DNA from: Candidatus Lindowbacteria bacterium RIFCSPLOWO2_12_FULL_62_27
GTDB lineage: Bacteria > Lindowbacteria > 2-12-FULL-62-27
DNA length: 64,000 nt
Assembly (NCBI GenBank): GCA_001784175.1
Contig: MFPR01000017.1
Span: forward strand, 93,024-157,023
Reading direction: 5' to 3'
Shown in pieces: positions 6,762 to 44,876 of the stretch. Within the stretch, counting starts at the first letter, position 1, and every line of letters starts with the position of its first letter. The position numbers and the translations under genes were made by a program. The notes beneath the pieces are model-generated. The model saw only the letters and a list, made by a program, of their open reading frames with translations. It did no database searches and was not told the origin of the DNA.

Positions 6762-7958
6762 TCAGTCCTGCGCAATCGCCGCCTCCAAAATCTCCTGCCG
6801 CTTCCCGTGATCGCCCGTCAGGATCAGGCCGACCCAGTCGCCGTACAGGTTGACGCCCAGCGAACACTGGTACGCGATGTTGGAATAATATTTTTTCACA
6901 AGCTGTTTCGTGGAGGTCCTGTACCGGATCCTGTTGAACCGCCCGATCTGCATGCAGATCTTGTCGCACGTGGGCCGGAGGACGACCTTTTCGTTTTTCA
7001 TCACCTTCGCATACGCCGCCCAGATGTCGATGCCGGCGGCGTGGTTCATCATGTCGAGATGCACAAACCCCGGCGGCCGGGCGTTGATCTCGACGCAGTA
7101 GTAGTCCTCGCCGATCCTGAAGTACTCGATGTGGAAGAATCGCTTCCTCAGGCCGAAGCCCTTCACCGTGTTGAAGCCGATCTCCCTGAGTTTGGCAGGG
7201 ATCTCGGCCCGCTTCAGATTGTAGTAGTAAATGGTTTTGCCGGTGGTGGCGATCTCGAGGTCGCCGTCGTTGTAGACGTGCGCCGTGTAAAAAACGATGT
7301 CCCCCCACGGGTCGGTCAGGCCGTCGAACGACATGAACTGCCGGTGTTCGTCCTGAATGAATTTCTCCATGAAGTACGTCGTTCCCGGCTTCTTTTTCCT
7401 CCAAAACTGCTGGATGTCGGCCTCCGTCCTCAGCCGGTAGGTGTGCGCCGACCCGAGGCCCCGGTCGGGCTTCGCGATGATGTCGCCGCCGACCTCTTGC
7501 TTGAATGCCAGCATGTGGGCCACGTCCTGAATGATCTCCCCGCGGGCCGTCTGGGCGCCCGCGGCCTGAAACACCGGCTTCATTTTGGATTTTCGGATGA
7601 GCCTCTCAAGCTCGTCCGGCTTCAGGCCCTCGACGTCAAAATCCTGCCGGAGACGCGCATCGAGCGGCAGCCACCATTCATTGAACGATTCGACGGCCTG
7701 CGGCTTGCCATACTCTTTCGCCAGTCTCTCCACCTTCCGGCGGATGGGCAGATACTTCGACTCGATGACCCCGCCGTTCGGATCGTAGCAGTCCAGTTCC
7801 TGGCGGAGGTAACTGCGGAGCGATGACTTGAGATCCGCGTTCAGGCGCGCGTATGCCGCGTCGCCCATTCCGAGGACTTGAAAGCCGGCCGCCTTCAGCC
7901 GGGTCGCGAAATAATAGACGCGCGGGGGATAAGACGGGGACAGAATCAGGAAATTCAG
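6762..7958 (-). CDS. ATP-grasp superfamily protein (carboxylate-amine/thiol ligase-like), probable CTG start
   Basis: ATP-grasp fold: GDIIAKPDRGLGSAHTYRL (nucleotide-binding strand and loop), TYFMEKFIQDEHRQFMSFDG, and the metal-binding segment YCVEINARPPGFVHLDMMNHAAGID. The first ATG (7868) removes the first beta strand. Upstream in frame, with no stop, lies a segment reading LNFLILSPSYPPRVYYFATRLKAAGFQVLG. Relatives normally begin with MNFLILSPSYPP, so translation probably starts at the CTG at 7958-7956; no ATG, GTG or TTG exists in frame between it and the upstream stop. It lies 30 bases downstream of the B12-radical SAM gene on the same strand. The product of the pair is unknown; a ligation step in a peptide-, lipid- or cell-surface-modifying pathway is inferred. 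Confidence 0.78.
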   Translation of the reverse strand: MNFLILSPSYPPRVYYFATRLKAAGFQVLGMGDAAYARLNADLKSSLRSYLRQELDCYDPNGGVIESKYLPIRRKVERLAKEYGKPQAVESFNEWWLPLDARLRQDFDVEGLKPDELERLIRKSKMKPVFQAAGAQTARGEIIQDVAHMLAFKQEVGGDIIAKPDRGLGSAHTYRLRTEADIQQFWRKKKPGTTYFMEKFIQDEHRQFMSFDGLTDPWGDIVFYTAHVYNDGDLEIATTGKTIYYYNLKRAEIPAKLREIGFNTVKGFGLRKRFFHIEYFRIGEDYYCVEINARPPGFVHLDMMNHAAGIDIWAAYAKVMKNEKVVLRPTCDKICMQIGRFNRIRYRTSTKQLVKKYYSNIAYQCSLGVNLYGDWVGLILTGDHGKRQEILEAAIAQD

Positions 7959-37924: not shown

Positions 37925-40510
37925 ATGGAGACTACGGGGGAAATACGGCTTCATAAATTAACGCCCCTCATCCGCCAGTACCAGTCGATCAAACGCGGCG
38001 TGGGCGACGCCATCCTCTTTTTCCGGCTCGGCGATTTCTACGAGATGTTTAACGAGGACGCCGTCGCCGCTTCCCAACTCCTCGGACTTTATCTCACCAA
38101 AAAAAGCGCCGGGGCCGGAAACTCCGTGCCCCTCGCCGGCGTGCCCGTCCATTCGGCCGATTCCTACATCGCGCGGCTCGTCAAGGCCGGCCGCAAAGTC
38201 GCCATCTGCGAACAGGTCGACGCCGGCCGGGGCAAGGGACTCATGGACCGCGCTGTCATCCGGATCGTCACGCCCGGAACGCTCGTCGAGGAAAATCTCC
38301 TCGCGCCCAACCTCGACAACCGGCTTGCCGCCCTCGCATGGGCCGATGACCGCGTTGGGCTGGCGTGTGTCGACGTGTCCACCGGCGATTTCGAAGTCGG
38401 CGAGTGGCGCGCCGATTCCGACGCGCTGAAAAACGCCTTCGAGGCCCTCAGTCTCCGCGAACTCGTCCTGCCCGACGCCCCCGCGCCCGCCGGCGTCGAG
38501 GCGCTCGCGAACGCGGGCGTTCCGGCATGCCGCCGCCGCGCGGCCGGCCCCGACGAAGTCATCGAGACCCTGAACGCGCGGTTCGGGGCGGGCGTGGTAG
38601 AAGCCTCGGGCCTGCGGCGGCAGCCCGCGGCGATCCTCGCGGTTGGACTTGTTCTGCGTTATCTTGCGGAAACCAAAAGCGACCATCTCCCGTTGCGGTT
38701 TCCGAGAACTCTCTCGCGCGCTGGCGTCATGGACCTGGACGCGGCGACCGTTCGGAACCTCGAAATTCTCGCCGGTCTTTCCGGCGACGCGCAGGCGGGC
38801 CTCTGGCCGGTCATCGACCGCACCCGCACCGCGATGGGATCGCGGCTTCTCCGCCGCTGGCTCCTGGCGCCGCTCCGCGCGCCCGCCGGCATCCTCGCGC
38901 GGCAGGAGGTCGTGTCGGCGCTCGTCGATCAGCCCGACATTCTGGATCGCCTTCGCGAGGCGCTCGCCGGCATCGGCGACATGGAACGGATTCTCGCGCG
39001 GCTCGCCCGCCCGGCCACCGCTCGTGTCACGGACCTCCTCATGCTTCGAAGTTCCCTCGAATCCGCTCCATTAGCTGTGACGGAGCTGGGCCGTCTGCCG
39101 GAAACCGCTCAACAGATCCTGAGCCTCGACGATTTCCCCGACCCATCGCCCATCCGGCGCATCCTTGCGGACCGGCTGGCCGAAGCGCCCGGCGCGGTGC
39201 TGGGAGAGGGCAAGGTCATCAAGGCCGGCGTGCATCCGGAACTGGACGAGCTGCGCGACATCGTCGAAAACCAGAGACTGCACCTCCTCAAATTCCAGGA
39301 CACCGAACGCACCCGTTCCAACATTGCGTCCCTCAAGGTCAGCTACAACCGGATTTACGGCTATTACATCGAAATCTCCAAGTCGAACCTCGACTCGGTC
39401 CCGGCCGACTACATCCGAAAACAAACGCTCGTCAATGCCGAACGCTTCGTCACGCCCGACCTCAAGCGCTTCGAGGAAAAACTCCTCGCCGCCTCCGATC
39501 GCATCTCCCACATCGAACGCGAACTCTTCTCACAGCTCCTCTCCGACATCCTCCTGCAGGCCGAGCCGGTCCGAAAGGCGGCCGAGCTTCTGGCCCGCGC
39601 CGATGCGCTGGCGGCCCTCGCCGAAACCGCGCGCCGCGAGCGCTTCGTCCGGCCGCAACTCACGGAAGACGACGTGCTCGAGATTCACGAAGGCCGTCAT
39701 CCGGTCGTCGAACGGTTCTGTCCGGACGGATTCGTCCCCAACGACACGCTCCTCACGCCTGACCGACGGCTCGCCATCGTCACCGGCCCCAACATGGCCG
39801 GCAAATCCACCTTTATCCGCCAGACCGCCGTCCTCACGCTCCTCGCGCAGATCGGCTCCTTCGTCCCCGCCAAAGCCATGCGATGGCGGCCCGTCGACCG
39901 CATCTTCACCCGCATCGGCGCTTCGGACGACCTCTCCCGCGGCCAGAGCACCTTCTTCGTTGAAATGTCCGAAACCGCCGCCATCCTCCGCCAGGCCACC
40001 CGCGACTCCCTCATCCTTCTCGACGAAATCGGGCGCGGCACCAGCACCTACGACGGCCTCTCCATCGCATGGGCCGTCGCCGAACACATCGCGACCTCGC
40101 TCCAGGCCAAGACCCTCTTCGCGACGCACTACCACGAACTCGCCGACATCGCCGGACAACAGGGCGTCCACACGCTTACGGTTCTCGTCCGCGAATGGGA
40201 GGGCCGCGTGGTTTTCCTGCGCAAGGTAACCGACGGCGCCTCCGACCGCAGTTTCGGGATTGCCGTCGCGGACCTCGCGGGCCTGCCGCGGTCCGTCCTC
40301 GAGCGCGCGCGCGCGCTTCTCACGCAACTGGAGTCCGCCTCGCAGACCCGCCGGCCGGCCGCGCCGGGCCAGGAGGATCTGTTCACCGCCCCGGCCGCGC
40401 CCGACCCGCATTCCGAATGGAAATCGCGGATCCGACAAATGCCGCTCGACCGCATGACCCCGATCGAAGTTGTGTCCGAGATCGCCCGGTGGCAGAAGGA
40501 AATCCAGTGA
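37925..40510 (+). CDS. mutS: DNA mismatch repair ATPase MutS
   Basis: 861 residues. Mismatch-binding domain with the Phe-x-Glu wedge in FFRLGDFYEMF (about 32-43); connector and lever domains; clamp around 430-540; ATPase with Walker A ITGPNMAGKSTFIRQT (about 620), TRIGASDDLSRGQSTFFVEM and Walker B LILLDEIGRGTSTYDGLS; C-terminal FGIAVADLAGLP dimerization helix-turn-helix. Recognizes mismatches and recruits MutL. Stop overlaps mutL (GTGA, 40507-40510). First gene of a mutS-mutL-miaA-SPFH-hflX-accB-degP run. Confidence 0.98.
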   Translation: METTGEIRLHKLTPLIRQYQSIKRGVGDAILFFRLGDFYEMFNEDAVAASQLLGLYLTKKSAGAGNSVPLAGVPVHSADSYIARLVKAGRKVAICEQVDAGRGKGLMDRAVIRIVTPGTLVEENLLAPNLDNRLAALAWADDRVGLACVDVSTGDFEVGEWRADSDALKNAFEALSLRELVLPDAPAPAGVEALANAGVPACRRRAAGPDEVIETLNARFGAGVVEASGLRRQPAAILAVGLVLRYLAETKSDHLPLRFPRTLSRAGVMDLDAATVRNLEILAGLSGDAQAGLWPVIDRTRTAMGSRLLRRWLLAPLRAPAGILARQEVVSALVDQPDILDRLREALAGIGDMERILARLARPATARVTDLLMLRSSLESAPLAVTELGRLPETAQQILSLDDFPDPSPIRRILADRLAEAPGAVLGEGKVIKAGVHPELDELRDIVENQRLHLLKFQDTERTRSNIASLKVSYNRIYGYYIEISKSNLDSVPADYIRKQTLVNAERFVTPDLKRFEEKLLAASDRISHIERELFSQLLSDILLQAEPVRKAAELLARADALAALAETARRERFVRPQLTEDDVLEIHEGRHPVVERFCPDGFVPNDTLLTPDRRLAIVTGPNMAGKSTFIRQTAVLTLLAQIGSFVPAKAMRWRPVDRIFTRIGASDDLSRGQSTFFVEMSETAAILRQATRDSLILLDEIGRGTSTYDGLSIAWAVAEHIATSLQAKTLFATHYHELADIAGQQGVHTLTVLVREWEGRVVFLRKVTDGASDRSFGIAVADLAGLPRSVLERARALLTQLESASQTRRPAAPGQEDLFTAPAAPDPHSEWKSRIRQMPLDRMTPIEVVSEIARWQKEIQ

Positions 40511-42267
40511 GTACACGGCCCGGCATCGCGGTCCTTCCGCCCGAGGTTGTCAACCAGATCGCCGCGGGCGAAGTCGTCACCCGGCCGGCGGCGGTCGTCC
40601 GGGAACTGATGGACAACGCCATCGACGCCGGCGCGGACGAGATCGCGGTCGAAATCGAAAAGGGCGGAAAGAAAAAGATCGCCGTCCGCGACAACGGCTG
40701 CGGCATGGACGCCGCCTCGCTCAAGCTTGCCGTCCTCCCCCACGCCACCAGCAAAATCCGATCGGTCGACGACCTCCAGACGATTCGGTCCCTCGGATTT
40801 CGCGGCGAGGCCCTTTCGAGCATCCACGCCGTCAGCCGTCTCGAAATTCTCTCGAGTGTTTCGCCCGACTGCGGCGGATCGAGACTCCTGTCGGACGGCA
40901 AATCCGTCCGCGTCTCGCCGGCGGCCGCCCCGACCGGCACCGCGGTCAGCGTTCGGGATCTCTTCTGGAACGTCCCGGCCCGCCGGAAATTCCTGCGCTC
41001 GGATGCCTCGGAAACCCGCGCCGTCGGCGAAACCGTGATCGAAAAGGCGCTCGCCTTTCCCGACAGGTCCTTTCGCTACGTCCGCGACGGCCAGGAGGTG
41101 TTCGTGCTGCCGGTCCGCGACACGCTCAGGGGCCGCCTCTCCGCGCTCTTCGGGCGCGATCTCAGTGACGCCTGCATTCCGTTCGACCGCTCGACCACCT
41201 CCAGCCGCGCGTTCGGGCTGGCGTCGGATCCGAGCATCGTGAAATCCACGCGTGGATCGATCTATCTCTTCGTCAACGGCCGCCGCGTTCAGGAACCGGC
41301 GCTTCAGCATGCGGTCCTCACCGTCTATCGAGAAATTCTCGACGAGGGTTTCCCGGCGGTCTTTCTGTTTCTTGAAATCGATCCCCATCTCGTCGACGTC
41401 AACGTCCATCCCGCCAAGTCCGAAGTCCGGTTCGCCGACGCATCCATCGTCTGCCGGTTCGTGGCCGGCGCCGTGTCGGACGCGGTCCACCGGTTTTCTC
41501 AGAAAGCGCCGGTGGCGGCGGTCCGGGAGGAATCTCTCCAGGCGGCGCCGCCCAACTCCGACCTCGGCGTCGCCGACCGGACAGAGATCGATCCCGCACA
41601 AGCGCTTTCCGACCCTCTCCCGCCCGAGCCCCTCTTCCAGACCGCCCAGCAGGGACGCTTTCGGATCCTCGGCCAGATTTATCGGACTTTTTTGCTCGTT
41701 GAAGAAATACCGGCCGCTTCAGGCGGCCCTTCGGAGGAACCCGAACTCTGGGTCGTCGATCAGCACGTCGCCTCCGAACGCGTGATCCTCTCGCGCATGA
41801 CCGAACGAATCGAACAGCGCGGCCCCCTCTCCCAGTCGCTCCTCGTGCCGATCGTGCTGGAACTCGGCCTCAAGGACTCGATCCTCTTCGAGCGCGTGGC
41901 CGCGTCCCTGCGGCGCATGGGATTTGAGACGGAACCGTTCGGCCCCCGCGGCGTCTGGATCGTCCGCGCCGTCCCGGTCATCCTGGGCCGGAGGGTCGCC
42001 GACCGGAAAATATTTCTGAAATTCGTCGAGGAACTCTCCTCCTTCGATTCCACCCGCCGCTCGGAGGAGGAACTCTTCCATGACGTCCTCGCGCATTTCG
42101 CCTGCCGGTCCGCCGTCAAGGCCGGCGATGCGCTGATGCCCGAGGAGCAGGCGCAGCTTTTGACGGACCTTCTGTCCGCCGAGCATTTCCGCATCTGCCC
42201 CCACGGCCGGCCTTCCATGATCAAAATCGCGCGGGACGAACTCGAAAAAAGATTCCTGAGAAAATAA
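40507..42267 (+). CDS. mutL: DNA mismatch repair protein MutL
   Basis: 586 residues from GTG 40507, overlapping mutS; the longer frame from 40069 lies within mutS. GHKL ATPase: VVRELMDNAIDAGA keeps the catalytic Glu four residues before the Asn, VRDNGCGMD and SLGFRGEALSSI follow. The C-terminal domain has DQHVASERVILS, ACRSAVKAGD and CPHGRPS. Compared with the metal-dependent nicking motif DQHA(X)2E(X)4E, the last Glu is Ser and the Ala is Val, so endonuclease activity is doubtful although CPHGRP is kept. Confidence 0.97.
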   Translation: MSTRPGIAVLPPEVVNQIAAGEVVTRPAAVVRELMDNAIDAGADEIAVEIEKGGKKKIAVRDNGCGMDAASLKLAVLPHATSKIRSVDDLQTIRSLGFRGEALSSIHAVSRLEILSSVSPDCGGSRLLSDGKSVRVSPAAAPTGTAVSVRDLFWNVPARRKFLRSDASETRAVGETVIEKALAFPDRSFRYVRDGQEVFVLPVRDTLRGRLSALFGRDLSDACIPFDRSTTSSRAFGLASDPSIVKSTRGSIYLFVNGRRVQEPALQHAVLTVYREILDEGFPAVFLFLEIDPHLVDVNVHPAKSEVRFADASIVCRFVAGAVSDAVHRFSQKAPVAAVREESLQAAPPNSDLGVADRTEIDPAQALSDPLPPEPLFQTAQQGRFRILGQIYRTFLLVEEIPAASGGPSEEPELWVVDQHVASERVILSRMTERIEQRGPLSQSLLVPIVLELGLKDSILFERVAASLRRMGFETEPFGPRGVWIVRAVPVILGRRVADRKIFLKFVEELSSFDSTRRSEEELFHDVLAHFACRSAVKAGDALMPEEQAQLLTDLLSAEHFRICPHGRPSMIKIARDELEKRFLRK

Positions 42268-43208
42268 CCGCCCGCACCGGGATCGTCCTCACCGGGCCCA
42301 CCGGCGCCGGCAAAACCGATCGGTCGATCCGCCTCGCCGACCGCCTGCTCGCGCTTGGCCGGACCTGCGAGATCGTTTCGGCCGACGCCGTCAGCATCTA
42401 CCGCGAACTCGAAATCGGCACGGCGAAACCGCCGCCAGATGTCCGCGCGCGCATCCGCCATCACCTGATCGACATCCGGTCCATCGCGCAAACCGCCGAG
42501 CCCGGCCCGGCCTACAGCGCGGGCGAGTTCGCCCGGGATTTCGCCGCGCTTTTGCCCGCGCTGTCCGACCCGCCCCTGGTCGTGGGTGGCACCGGCTTCT
42601 ACATCGACGCCATCGTCCGGGGCTTGGCCGACCTTCCGGCCGCGCATCCCGAGATTCGCGACCGGCTGGCGGCGGAAGAAAGAGCGGCGCCGGGTGCGCT
42701 CCATCGACGTCTTGAACGCTTGGACGCCACAGCGGCGCAGCGCATCGGTCCGGCCAACATCCAGCGACTTATCCGCGCGGTCGAGGTTCGCGAACTGACG
42801 GGCGGACCCTTTTCGGCGGCCGCGCGCACACCCACGAGTTTTCGGCCGATCATCCTGGTGATCGCGCCCGACCGCACGGACCTCCACCGGCGGATCGACG
42901 AGCGCTGCCGGTGGATGTTTGACCACGGCCTTCCGGAGGAGGTCGAGTCCCTGCTGAAACGCTTTCCGCCGAATCTGCCGGCCTTCTCGATCATCGGCTA
43001 CACCGAAGCCTTCCGGCTCGTGCGCGGCCTCTGTTCCCGCGTGGAGGCCGTCGCCCAAACCGCCGCCCGCACGCGGCAGCTCGCCAAACGCCAGTTGACC
43101 TGGTGGCGTCATTTCAGGTATGAACAGGTGAGGTTCGTGCCGGCGGGGGTTTCGCCGGACGGCATTCTGGCCGTATGGAAGGAGAGTGACGCTTGCGGGG
43201 ATTCCTGA
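42252..43208 (+). CDS. miaA: tRNA dimethylallyltransferase, non-canonical start
   Basis: About 318 residues. P-loop TGIVLTGPTGAGKTDRS, VSADAVSIYRELEIGTAKP, HHLIDI, LVVGGTGFYIDAIVRGL, and late FSIIGYTEAF.. and RTRQLAKRQLTWWRH match MiaA throughout. It adds dimethylallyl to A37, providing the substrate for MiaB. The open frame contains no ATG, GTG or TTG between the P-loop and well inside mutL; the best candidates are ATT 42252 or ATA 42264, the former giving MPEKITARTGIVLTG. It overlaps the mutL 3' end by 16 bases, so translational coupling is likely. Beginning at the first ATG inside the gene would delete the catalytic P-loop. Confidence 0.93.
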   Translation: MPEKITARTGIVLTGPTGAGKTDRSIRLADRLLALGRTCEIVSADAVSIYRELEIGTAKPPPDVRARIRHHLIDIRSIAQTAEPGPAYSAGEFARDFAALLPALSDPPLVVGGTGFYIDAIVRGLADLPAAHPEIRDRLAAEERAAPGALHRRLERLDATAAQRIGPANIQRLIRAVEVRELTGGPFSAAARTPTSFRPIILVIAPDRTDLHRRIDERCRWMFDHGLPEEVESLLKRFPPNLPAFSIIGYTEAFRLVRGLCSRVEAVAQTAARTRQLAKRQLTWWRHFRYEQVRFVPAGVSPDGILAVWKESDACGDS

Positions 43209-43759
43209 TTCTGTTGACCCTGATCAGCATATTCTGTGTCGTGGTCTATGATTCGGTCGTCGCCGTTCCCGACGGATATGTCGGTGTGACCACCTGCCGG
43301 CTGCGGCGTTTCGGACCCATCGCCACGGCCCCGCGGACGCTGGACCCGGGCCTCCATCTTTCGCTTCCGCTCCTGACTCGGCTCAGTCTCTACAACACGC
43401 GCATCCAGATGCTCGTCCTCCAGGTGCCGGTCGGGGAAGGAAAGATCGTGCAGATGACCGGACAGGTCCGGATCGAGCCGGACTCGGCGGTGATTCTCCA
43501 CCAAAAGCGCGGCCCCAACTACCTTGCGGAGGTCCGGCCGTGGCTCACGGAGATTTTCAAGGGGAAAATCTCCGAAGCCCACGGGCGTCTCGGATCTCCG
43601 GAAATCCGGCAGGACATCCTCGACACGGTCGAACAGGCCCTCGCCGCCGACGGCATCGCCTTTGACCGGCCGCCCTTCCTGACCCTTCTTGAGCATCTCT
43701 CTCTCAACCTCGACCCGCCAACCGAAGAGGAGTCGGATACCGACGAAGACGCGGATTGA
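43193..43759 (+). CDS. short SPFH/band 7-like membrane-anchored protein
   Basis: 188 residues from TTG 43193, with AAGGAGAG about 9 bases upstream, overlapping miaA by 16. One N-terminal membrane helix (about 3-20) is followed by a band 7 beta domain (VPDGYVGVTTCRLRRFGPIATAPRTLDPGLHLSLPLLTRLSLYNTRIQML) and a helical part, then an acidic tail (PPTEEESDTDEDAD). It lacks the long coiled coil of flotillins and HflK/HflC. Lying between miaA and hflX where HflK/HflC-related genes occur in other bacteria, it may fill a similar FtsH-modulating role (inference). Confidence 0.72.
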   Translation: MRGFLILLTLISIFCVVVYDSVVAVPDGYVGVTTCRLRRFGPIATAPRTLDPGLHLSLPLLTRLSLYNTRIQMLVLQVPVGEGKIVQMTGQVRIEPDSAVILHQKRGPNYLAEVRPWLTEIFKGKISEAHGRLGSPEIRQDILDTVEQALAADGIAFDRPPFLTLLEHLSLNLDPPTEEESDTDEDAD

Positions 43760-44876
43760 GGCCCTGCGGAACAGCCGGCAGGCGCCCAAGACTCTCATCG
43801 TCGCCTTGGCCCTGCGCGGAAAACCCGTCGACGCCGAACTCGTGGAGCTCACGGAACTCGCCCGGACCGCCGGCGCCGCCGTCGCGGATACGGTGGTGCA
43901 GAAGGCCGACCGGATCGACCCCGCGGTCTGGATCGGCCGCGGCAAATCGGAGGCGGTGGCCGAACGCGTCCGCTCGGAGCAATTTCAGCTCATCATCTTT
44001 AACGGCCTTCTGTCGCCCACCCAGCTCCGCAACCTCCAGGACATGGTCGGCAGTGATGTCAAGATTCTCGACCGCCCCGGACTTATCCTCGACATCTTCG
44101 CCATGCATGCCCGCAGCCGTGACGCAAAATTGCGGGTGGAACTCGCGCAGCTCCAGTATCTCCTCCCGCGGCTGGCCGGCCTTTGGCGCCATCTCGAACG
44201 GCAGCAGGGCGGCATCGGCACGCGGGGCCCGGGCGAAACCCAGATCGAGGTCGACCGCCGCATGGCGCGAAAACGCATCGGCGCCCTGCAGGAACAGATC
44301 GGCCGACTCGGCCGCGCCCGGTCCGTGCAGCGGTCCGGCCGGGAGTCCCTCCCGCGCGTTGCGCTCGTCGGGTACACCAACGCCGGCAAATCCACGCTTC
44401 TCAACGCGCTCACGCACGCCGACGTCTTCGCCGACGATCATCTCTTCTCGACGCTCGACACCAAAACCGCCGCCCTCGTCTTCCCCTCGGCGGACGGCCT
44501 CCAGGGTCCGCCCCCCCGGGTCCTGGTCAGCGATACGGTCGGATTCATCCGCAGCCTCCCGGACCATCTCTTTGACGCCTTTCTTTCGACGCTCGACGAA
44601 GTCCGCGAAGCGGATCTCCTCCTGCACGTGATCGACGCCTCGAACGCGGAATTTCGGACGCAGGCCGCGACCGTGTCCGATGTCCTCTCCAAGATTTCCG
44701 TCGACCGGCCGGTCCTCACCGTGTTCAACAAGGCCGACCGGCTGGATGCCCGGCCCGACCATCTGCTCCGCGAATATCCGGACTCTTTGTTCATCTCCGC
44801 CAGAACCGGACTGGGCCTCGCGGGACTTAGGGAGACCGTCCGGCAGAAAACCGTTGCGCCGGCGGCGGCCCGGTGA
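43755..44876 (+). CDS. hflX: ribosome-splitting GTPase HflX, non-canonical start
   Basis: About 373 residues. HflX N-domain begins at KTLIVALALRGKPVDAELVELTELARTAGAAVADTVVQ; GIGTRGPGETQIEVDRR is the HflX signature; G1 VGYTNAGKSTL, G2/G3 switch TLDTKT and DTVGFIRSLPDHL, G4 NKAD, G5 SART. No ATG or GTG precedes the first strand. TTG 43689 would overlap the previous gene by 71 bases; ATT 43755 lies next to its stop. I place the start at ATT 43755, with TTG 43689 as alternative. Its stop overlaps the accB region (GTGA at 44873). Confidence 0.92.
   Translation: MEALRNSRQAPKTLIVALALRGKPVDAELVELTELARTAGAAVADTVVQKADRIDPAVWIGRGKSEAVAERVRSEQFQLIIFNGLLSPTQLRNLQDMVGSDVKILDRPGLILDIFAMHARSRDAKLRVELAQLQYLLPRLAGLWRHLERQQGGIGTRGPGETQIEVDRRMARKRIGALQEQIGRLGRARSVQRSGRESLPRVALVGYTNAGKSTLLNALTHADVFADDHLFSTLDTKTAALVFPSADGLQGPPPRVLVSDTVGFIRSLPDHLFDAFLSTLDEVREADLLLHVIDASNAEFRTQAATVSDVLSKISVDRPVLTVFNKADRLDARPDHLLREYPDSLFISARTGLGLAGLRETVRQKTVAPAAAR

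Follow-up and report, generated by a model that had tools for sequence, protein, structure and literature searches.

Here we report an analysis of three genes with apparent non-AUG start codons in a stretch of 64,000 nucleotides (the window) from the genome of Candidatus Lindowbacteria bacterium RIFCSPLOWO2_12_FULL_62_27 (hereafter G000; 4.39 Mb in 44 contigs, 94% complete; window at G000:C17:93024-157023). The genes are miaA, which lies directly downstream of mutL, hflX, and a gene that we refer to as ATP-grasp-like. Throughout, a canonical start is ATG, GTG or TTG, and the relatives used for comparison, G001 and G002, represent the two other genera of the family, of which three genera are known in all. 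The features concerned, in window coordinates, are the following.

6762..7958, minus strand: ATP-grasp-like gene, proposed CUG start at 7958, from the orthologue columns
42245..42251, plus strand: A6G run at the end of mutL, candidate -1 frameshift site under a rival explanation
42252..42254, plus strand: ATT, alternative miaA start, away from the stop overlap and less favoured
42264..43208, plus strand: miaA (tRNA A37 dimethylallyltransferase), with a proposed AUA start that shares bases with the mutL stop (ATAA)
42265..42267, plus strand: TAA stop of mutL (open reading frame 40069-42267), overlapping the miaA start
43193..43759, plus strand: small open reading frame between miaA and hflX with a TTG start, its TGA stop (43757-43759) sharing one base with ATT 43755
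43728..43732, plus strand: AGGAG, Shine-Dalgarno-like, 4 nt before ATA 43737
43737..44876, plus strand: hflX, proposed AUA start at 43737, alternatives TTG 43689 and ATT 43755

Upstream of ATA 42264 the miaA frame contains no ATG, GTG or TTG as far back as the in-frame stop 61 codons away, and its first canonical codon, TTG 42552, is 96 codons past ATA 42264, which bears out the statement of an earlier, sequence-only reading of the window that no canonical start exists from the P-loop back into mutL. Translated from ATA 42264, MiaA passes the equivalog cut-off of TIGR00174 (198.7 bits against 148.65), with residues 7-284 aligned to profile positions 2-277. The start codon at this position overlaps the mutL stop, making the two genes an overlapping pair; ATT 42252 has neither a stop overlap nor a Shine-Dalgarno (SD) motif. 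On these sequence features ATA 42264 is the likeliest start, and the predicted N-terminal peptide would be (f)MTARTGIVLTGPTGAGK. In an ab initio scan for genes without a canonical start, based on a dicodon gene model and run on 1.22 Mb of G000, miaA ranked 2 of 776 genes. Among 20 miaA genes of other genomes with a recognised P-loop, one also lacks a canonical start: that of the unrelated genome G029 (L010), in which ATA follows AGGAG by 4 nt and the 16S rRNA has G at position 793.

CTG 7958 is the sole plausible start of the ATP-grasp-like gene, and alignment confirmed that it stands where relatives have ATG, as the sequence-only reading had claimed. The frame is closed by a stop 11 codons upstream, ATG 7868, 30 codons into the gene, is the next canonical codon, and the orthologues in G001 (L167) and G002 (L168), 72% and 70% identical, have ATG exactly in the column of CTG 7958, so that CTG is found in G000 only among the three genera. 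The gene ranked 8 of 776 in the scan. Its ATP-grasp label derives from the earlier reading; the gene matched no Pfam-A family at E 0.001.

HflX passes the equivalog cut-off of TIGR03156 (405.3 bits against 216.75), with residue 19 falling on profile position 2. For this gene the sequence-only reading had offered ATT 43755 or a distant TTG; both exist, the TTG at 43689 being a legal start, and it had overlooked ATA 43737 behind AGGAG, which probably suits the start better than ATT 43755 from its sequence context. The closest relative of hflX is 73% identical, is annotated as Candidatus Lindowbacteria (JAHFCY010000232.1) and fits the G001 copy, all others being at most 50% identical, and the 5' end of the gene is covered by no relative in the family. 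It is the weakest of the three cases in the window.

About fifteen similar genes were found beyond the window in the same 1.22 Mb. Genes that have homology support but no usable canonical start are queA, tgt, infC, livH, rnhA and an RND pump with CTG, pgsA (ATAA at L189 14753), birA and a reverse-transcriptase gene (ATAA at L209 9430, with the next canonical codon 102 codons inside) with ATA, an M50 peptidase gene, ispE and two glycosyltransferases with ATC, and an MFS (Atg22-like) transporter with ATT. The RND pump, rnhA, one glycosyltransferase and the MFS transporter are less strict cases, with a canonical codon 19 to 145 codons upstream. Curated cut-offs are passed by miaA, queA, tgt, ispE, pgsA, infC and the RND gene, in matches starting at profile position 1-4. 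Cases in G002 comprise queA (ATT), a thiE-like gene (CTG), a TauE-like gene (CTGA) and the L305 gene (ATAA). The listed non-AUG codons, which rarely serve as starts in bacteria, all differ from AUG at either the first or the third position, a pattern that is no unbiased test because the list was partly chosen by eye. As an observation in its own right, the product of the reverse-transcriptase gene (L209:7561-9430, minus strand, apparent AUA start) combines an RVT_1 domain (YVDD) with HEAT repeats, and the gene is possibly a retroelement or defence gene.

Aligning the starts of relatives, a check that the earlier reading had proposed, revealed both conserved and switched codons. In each of the three genera infC sits at a CTGA that overlaps the stop of thrS (G002 has an additional GTG nine codons in), and the M50 gene reads ATC-GAA, preceded at 7-8 nt by GGAGG. 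For queA, found in two of the genomes, the apparent start is CTGA in G000 and ATT after AGGTGAGG in G002, neither copy having a canonical codon nearby. The tgt gene resembles the ATP-grasp-like gene, with CTG in G000 only and ATG in that column in G001 and G002.

The start overlaps the preceding stop, as ATAA or CTGA, in miaA, pgsA, the reverse-transcriptase gene, queA, infC, rnhA and the RND gene. Genes without any other canonical codon make up 4/10 of ATAA junctions against 3/41 of other NTAA/NTAG junctions in the same phase (p=0.02), and ATGA is the commonest junction of this kind in the genome, with 93 cases. Coupling-driven reinitiation, which the sequence-only reading had suggested, thus fits these seven genes but leaves out tgt, birA, livH, the M50 gene and the ATP-grasp-like gene.

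From these sequence comparisons we consider it likely that miaA is translated from AUA 42264, the ATP-grasp-like gene from CUG 7958 and hflX probably from AUA 43737, as real near-cognate starts that are in part translationally coupled, because canonical starts are missing, the starts agree with family or orthologue alignments, several have stop/start overlaps or a well-spaced SD, and infC (CUG) and the M50 gene (AUC) keep theirs in three genera. On this reading, fMet-tRNA(CAU) would pair with the near-cognate codon at two of three positions; at the overlaps, a ribosome finishing the upstream gene may re-initiate on that codon, and at the other genes an SD or some other context would compensate. 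Output per mRNA would be low, which would suit low-abundance enzymes, and the genes would be rendered sensitive to initiation factor 3 (IF3), such that infC, itself started at CUG, might set the level for the other genes as the AUU start does in E. coli.

Several points weigh against real near-cognate starts, or against their being a property of this lineage. Many candidates were chosen by eye. Orthologues of miaA are missing from G001 and G002, so its start is not comparable within the family, and for hflX the legal TTG 43689 lies 16 codons upstream of ATA 43737, owing to which the gene does not lack a canonical start in the strict sense. Taken as a class, CTGA junctions are not enriched in genes without other starts (11/53 against 32/198, p=0.27). 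Single similar cases occur in G053 (ATC after AGGAGG) and G029 (miaA, ATA after AGGAG), and the phenomenon is therefore not limited to the Lindowbacteria lineage; the G053 gene, in a control genome, encodes an ABC transporter ATPase (L160:5483, minus strand) with AGGAGG followed by ATC as its apparent start.

Explanations that dispense with near-cognate initiation fare poorly. Assembly or base-calling errors could have changed ATG to ATA, CTG, ATC and the like, and two of the three window cases are one base away from ATG; however, the non-AUG starts of infC and the M50 gene are identical in three separate genomes of different genera, and an error rate that hit some 15 start codons in 776 genes would have left stops and frameshifts throughout genes that average 375 codons, which is not what was seen. 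This explanation is largely refuted and retains the slimmest chance of all. Relative to mutL, miaA is in the -1 frame, which stays open over the 61 codons before the gene with no start in it, and the A6G run precedes the stop; a MutL-MiaA fusion made by -1 frameshifting at 42245-42251 would require no miaA start whatsoever. The zero frame there reads GAA AAA AGA rather than the efficient A AAA AAG phase, and frameshifting leaves tgt, birA and the ATP-grasp-like gene unexplained, each with an in-frame stop just upstream; we regard it as very unlikely. Hardly any room is left for the genes being pseudogenes or starting internally at their first canonical codon: miaA from TTG 42552 would lack its P-loop, conserved N-termini would be missing from tgt, queA and pgsA, and the frames are intact, with near full-length matches to curated families. 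A neighbouring pair elsewhere in the genome does look broken (L195:6587-8400, minus strand); it consists of a GAF/cyclase-like gene cut by an in-frame TAG, followed after a frame change by a kinase frame without a start, and is probably a decaying gene.

A more substantial alternative, to which we give somewhat less than an even chance, is that all bacteria have a few near-cognate starts hidden by gene finders and that this genome is not special; it concerns the rate only, and the individual starts could be real under it too. The genome-wide tally that the sequence-only reading had called for was run on 1.22 of the 4.39 Mb of G000 and 0.47 Mb of G001 and G002, with 484 genes from four control genomes, E. 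coli K-12 among them, and it found further genes without clearly separating the family from the controls. At the loosest cut-off, orphan starts number 20/776 in G000 against 14/484 in the controls (p=0.72), which gives no evidence of a special lineage. With loss cut-offs picked after the data were seen, the family has 20/1069 against 3/484 at a loss of at least 7 (one-sided p=0.04) and 14/1069 against 2/484 at a loss of at least 10 (p=0.08). The scan recovered the known AUU start of E. coli infC as a positive control and also found, in a control genome, a prfB-like gene with its known programmed frameshift; at the stricter cut-offs the control hits are these two and one false positive, whereas the family retains several homology-supported cases. 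Codons anchored to SD motifs in G000 showed no excess of near-cognates in frame (21, against 20 and 18 out of frame). The comparable single cases in G053 and G029 and the AUA/AUU starts of S. aureus infC, ccpN, cvfC1 and citZ (PMC13009471) also favour an ordinary background. Against it, AUG-to-CUG switches were very rare in an earlier tally, reconstructed at ~3e-5 in other genome triplets (PMC5622118), compared with two here (the ATP-grasp-like gene and tgt) in about 100 orthologue pairs, although these two were looked up on purpose and annotation pipelines would bias the earlier count downward. Two further approaches were abandoned: an unsupervised expectation-maximisation estimate of start-codon frequencies, in which rare codons soaked up weight, and an orthologue-pair scan made noisy by shadow open reading frames, whose korB candidate turned out to have ATG. 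Relaxed start selection, as proposed by the sequence-only reading, therefore holds gene by gene, with other genes alike and two of them conserved in three genera, but scan counts do not settle an excess over other bacteria; the individual cases are credible, and the marginal evidence suggests a lineage-wide excess.

The initiation machinery offers leads rather than evidence of cause. Inspection of infC, also proposed by the earlier reading, showed that IF3 is present, retaining Y75, R99, K110, R131, R133 and R147, and that its gene lacks a canonical start (CTG at the thrS stop). The suggestion of a different use of IF3 is accordingly not supported, the protein being ordinary with its fidelity residues kept; changes at R112 and R129 were dismissed as a cause since other lineages vary at 112 and 129 too. 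The 3' end of the 16S rRNA is canonical (GGATCACCTCC) and the anti-SD normal, and strong SD motifs precede few genes (127/812 with a canonical codon at proper spacing). G000, G001 and G002 all lack the usual initiator anticodon stem, GGGCTCATAACCC; their tRNA-fMet genes (L279, L295 and L296) are identical and carry AGGCTCATAACCT, with A29-U41 in place of G29-C41 and a U1/U72 mismatch in place of C1/A72. The stem thus departs from the canonical three G-C pairs (29-41, 30-40, 31-39). True tRNA-fMet genes with the A29-U41 stem were confirmed in 5/78 genomes examined; a matched sequence in G029 proved not to be a tRNA, and the correlation with that genome was dropped. The G29-C41 pair touches 16S G1338, and altering the adjacent pair weakens discrimination against CUG in vitro (PMC11497404). 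In G000, 16S position 793 is G, within the 790 loop that IF3 binds (PMC3130014); G793 was present in 7/64 genomes in which the motif was found, including G029. Speculatively, the weakened anticodon stem and G793 might make the lineage more permissive. We think it unlikely that the family has a relaxed start-codon code in which discrimination is lowered by the A29-U41 tRNA (together with G793, in this genome at least), AUA, CUG, AUC and AUU routinely start a few per cent of genes, and infC at CUG regulates the set.

Two other observations concern the genome at large. At a contig end (L277, G000:C27:1563-5297), 28 tRNA genes lie within ~3.7 kb, many of them isoacceptors duplicating the chromosomal set, an arrangement resembling the tRNA array of a phage or mobile element. 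Intergenic palindromic repeats are built on TATCATGATA (L126:18826, L216:9202, L241:1706 and elsewhere, and upstream of tgt in G001), and this 10-mer occurs 20 times in 1.22 Mb, where none of four control palindromes occurs.

On a practical level, gene finders take only ATG, GTG and TTG, and genes with near-cognate starts are therefore truncated or missed; miaA, for example, would be called without its P-loop. The set formed by infC, miaA, queA, tgt and hflX suggests candidates for regulation via the level of IF3. Start-codon fidelity has so far been studied mainly with E. coli mutants; should the lineage prove truly permissive, the variants in its initiator tRNA and 16S rRNA would offer a natural experiment on the part that the anticodon stem and the 790 loop play in setting that fidelity.

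Near-cognate AUU starts limit the synthesis of E. coli infC, which is autoregulated, and pcnB, and are sensitive to IF3. The infC gene described here is likewise without a canonical start; unlike in E. coli, the codon is CUG and overlaps the stop of thrS, and the non-AUG feature recurs in about fifteen further genes of this genome. The conserved near-cognate starts also resemble those of S. aureus, where infC, ccpN, cvfC1 and citZ have conserved AUA/AUU starts yielding ~10-30% of AUG output (PMC13009471). The S. aureus infC, ccpN and cvfC1 sites have extended SD motifs (PMC13009471), whereas here only some do (M50, hflX and queA in G002), the others lying at stop overlaps or lacking a visible SD. 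As in the E. coli tRNA-fMet mutant M1, one of the three anticodon-stem G-C pairs, which contact 16S A1339/G1338, is changed; M1, with weakened A-minor contacts, discriminates less against CUG in vitro (PMC11497404). In M1 the G30-C40 pair is flipped, whereas the replacement of G29-C41 by A29-U41 is natural and the same in three genera. In E. coli, excess IF3 reduces re-initiation, and loss of ribosome recycling leads to initiation at non-canonical codons past a stop (PMC2268962). The junctions reported here share with ATGA-type translational coupling (PMC2268962) the 4-nt stop/start overlap in the -1 frame, and differ from it in that the start would be AUA (ATAA) or CUG (CTGA) instead of AUG.

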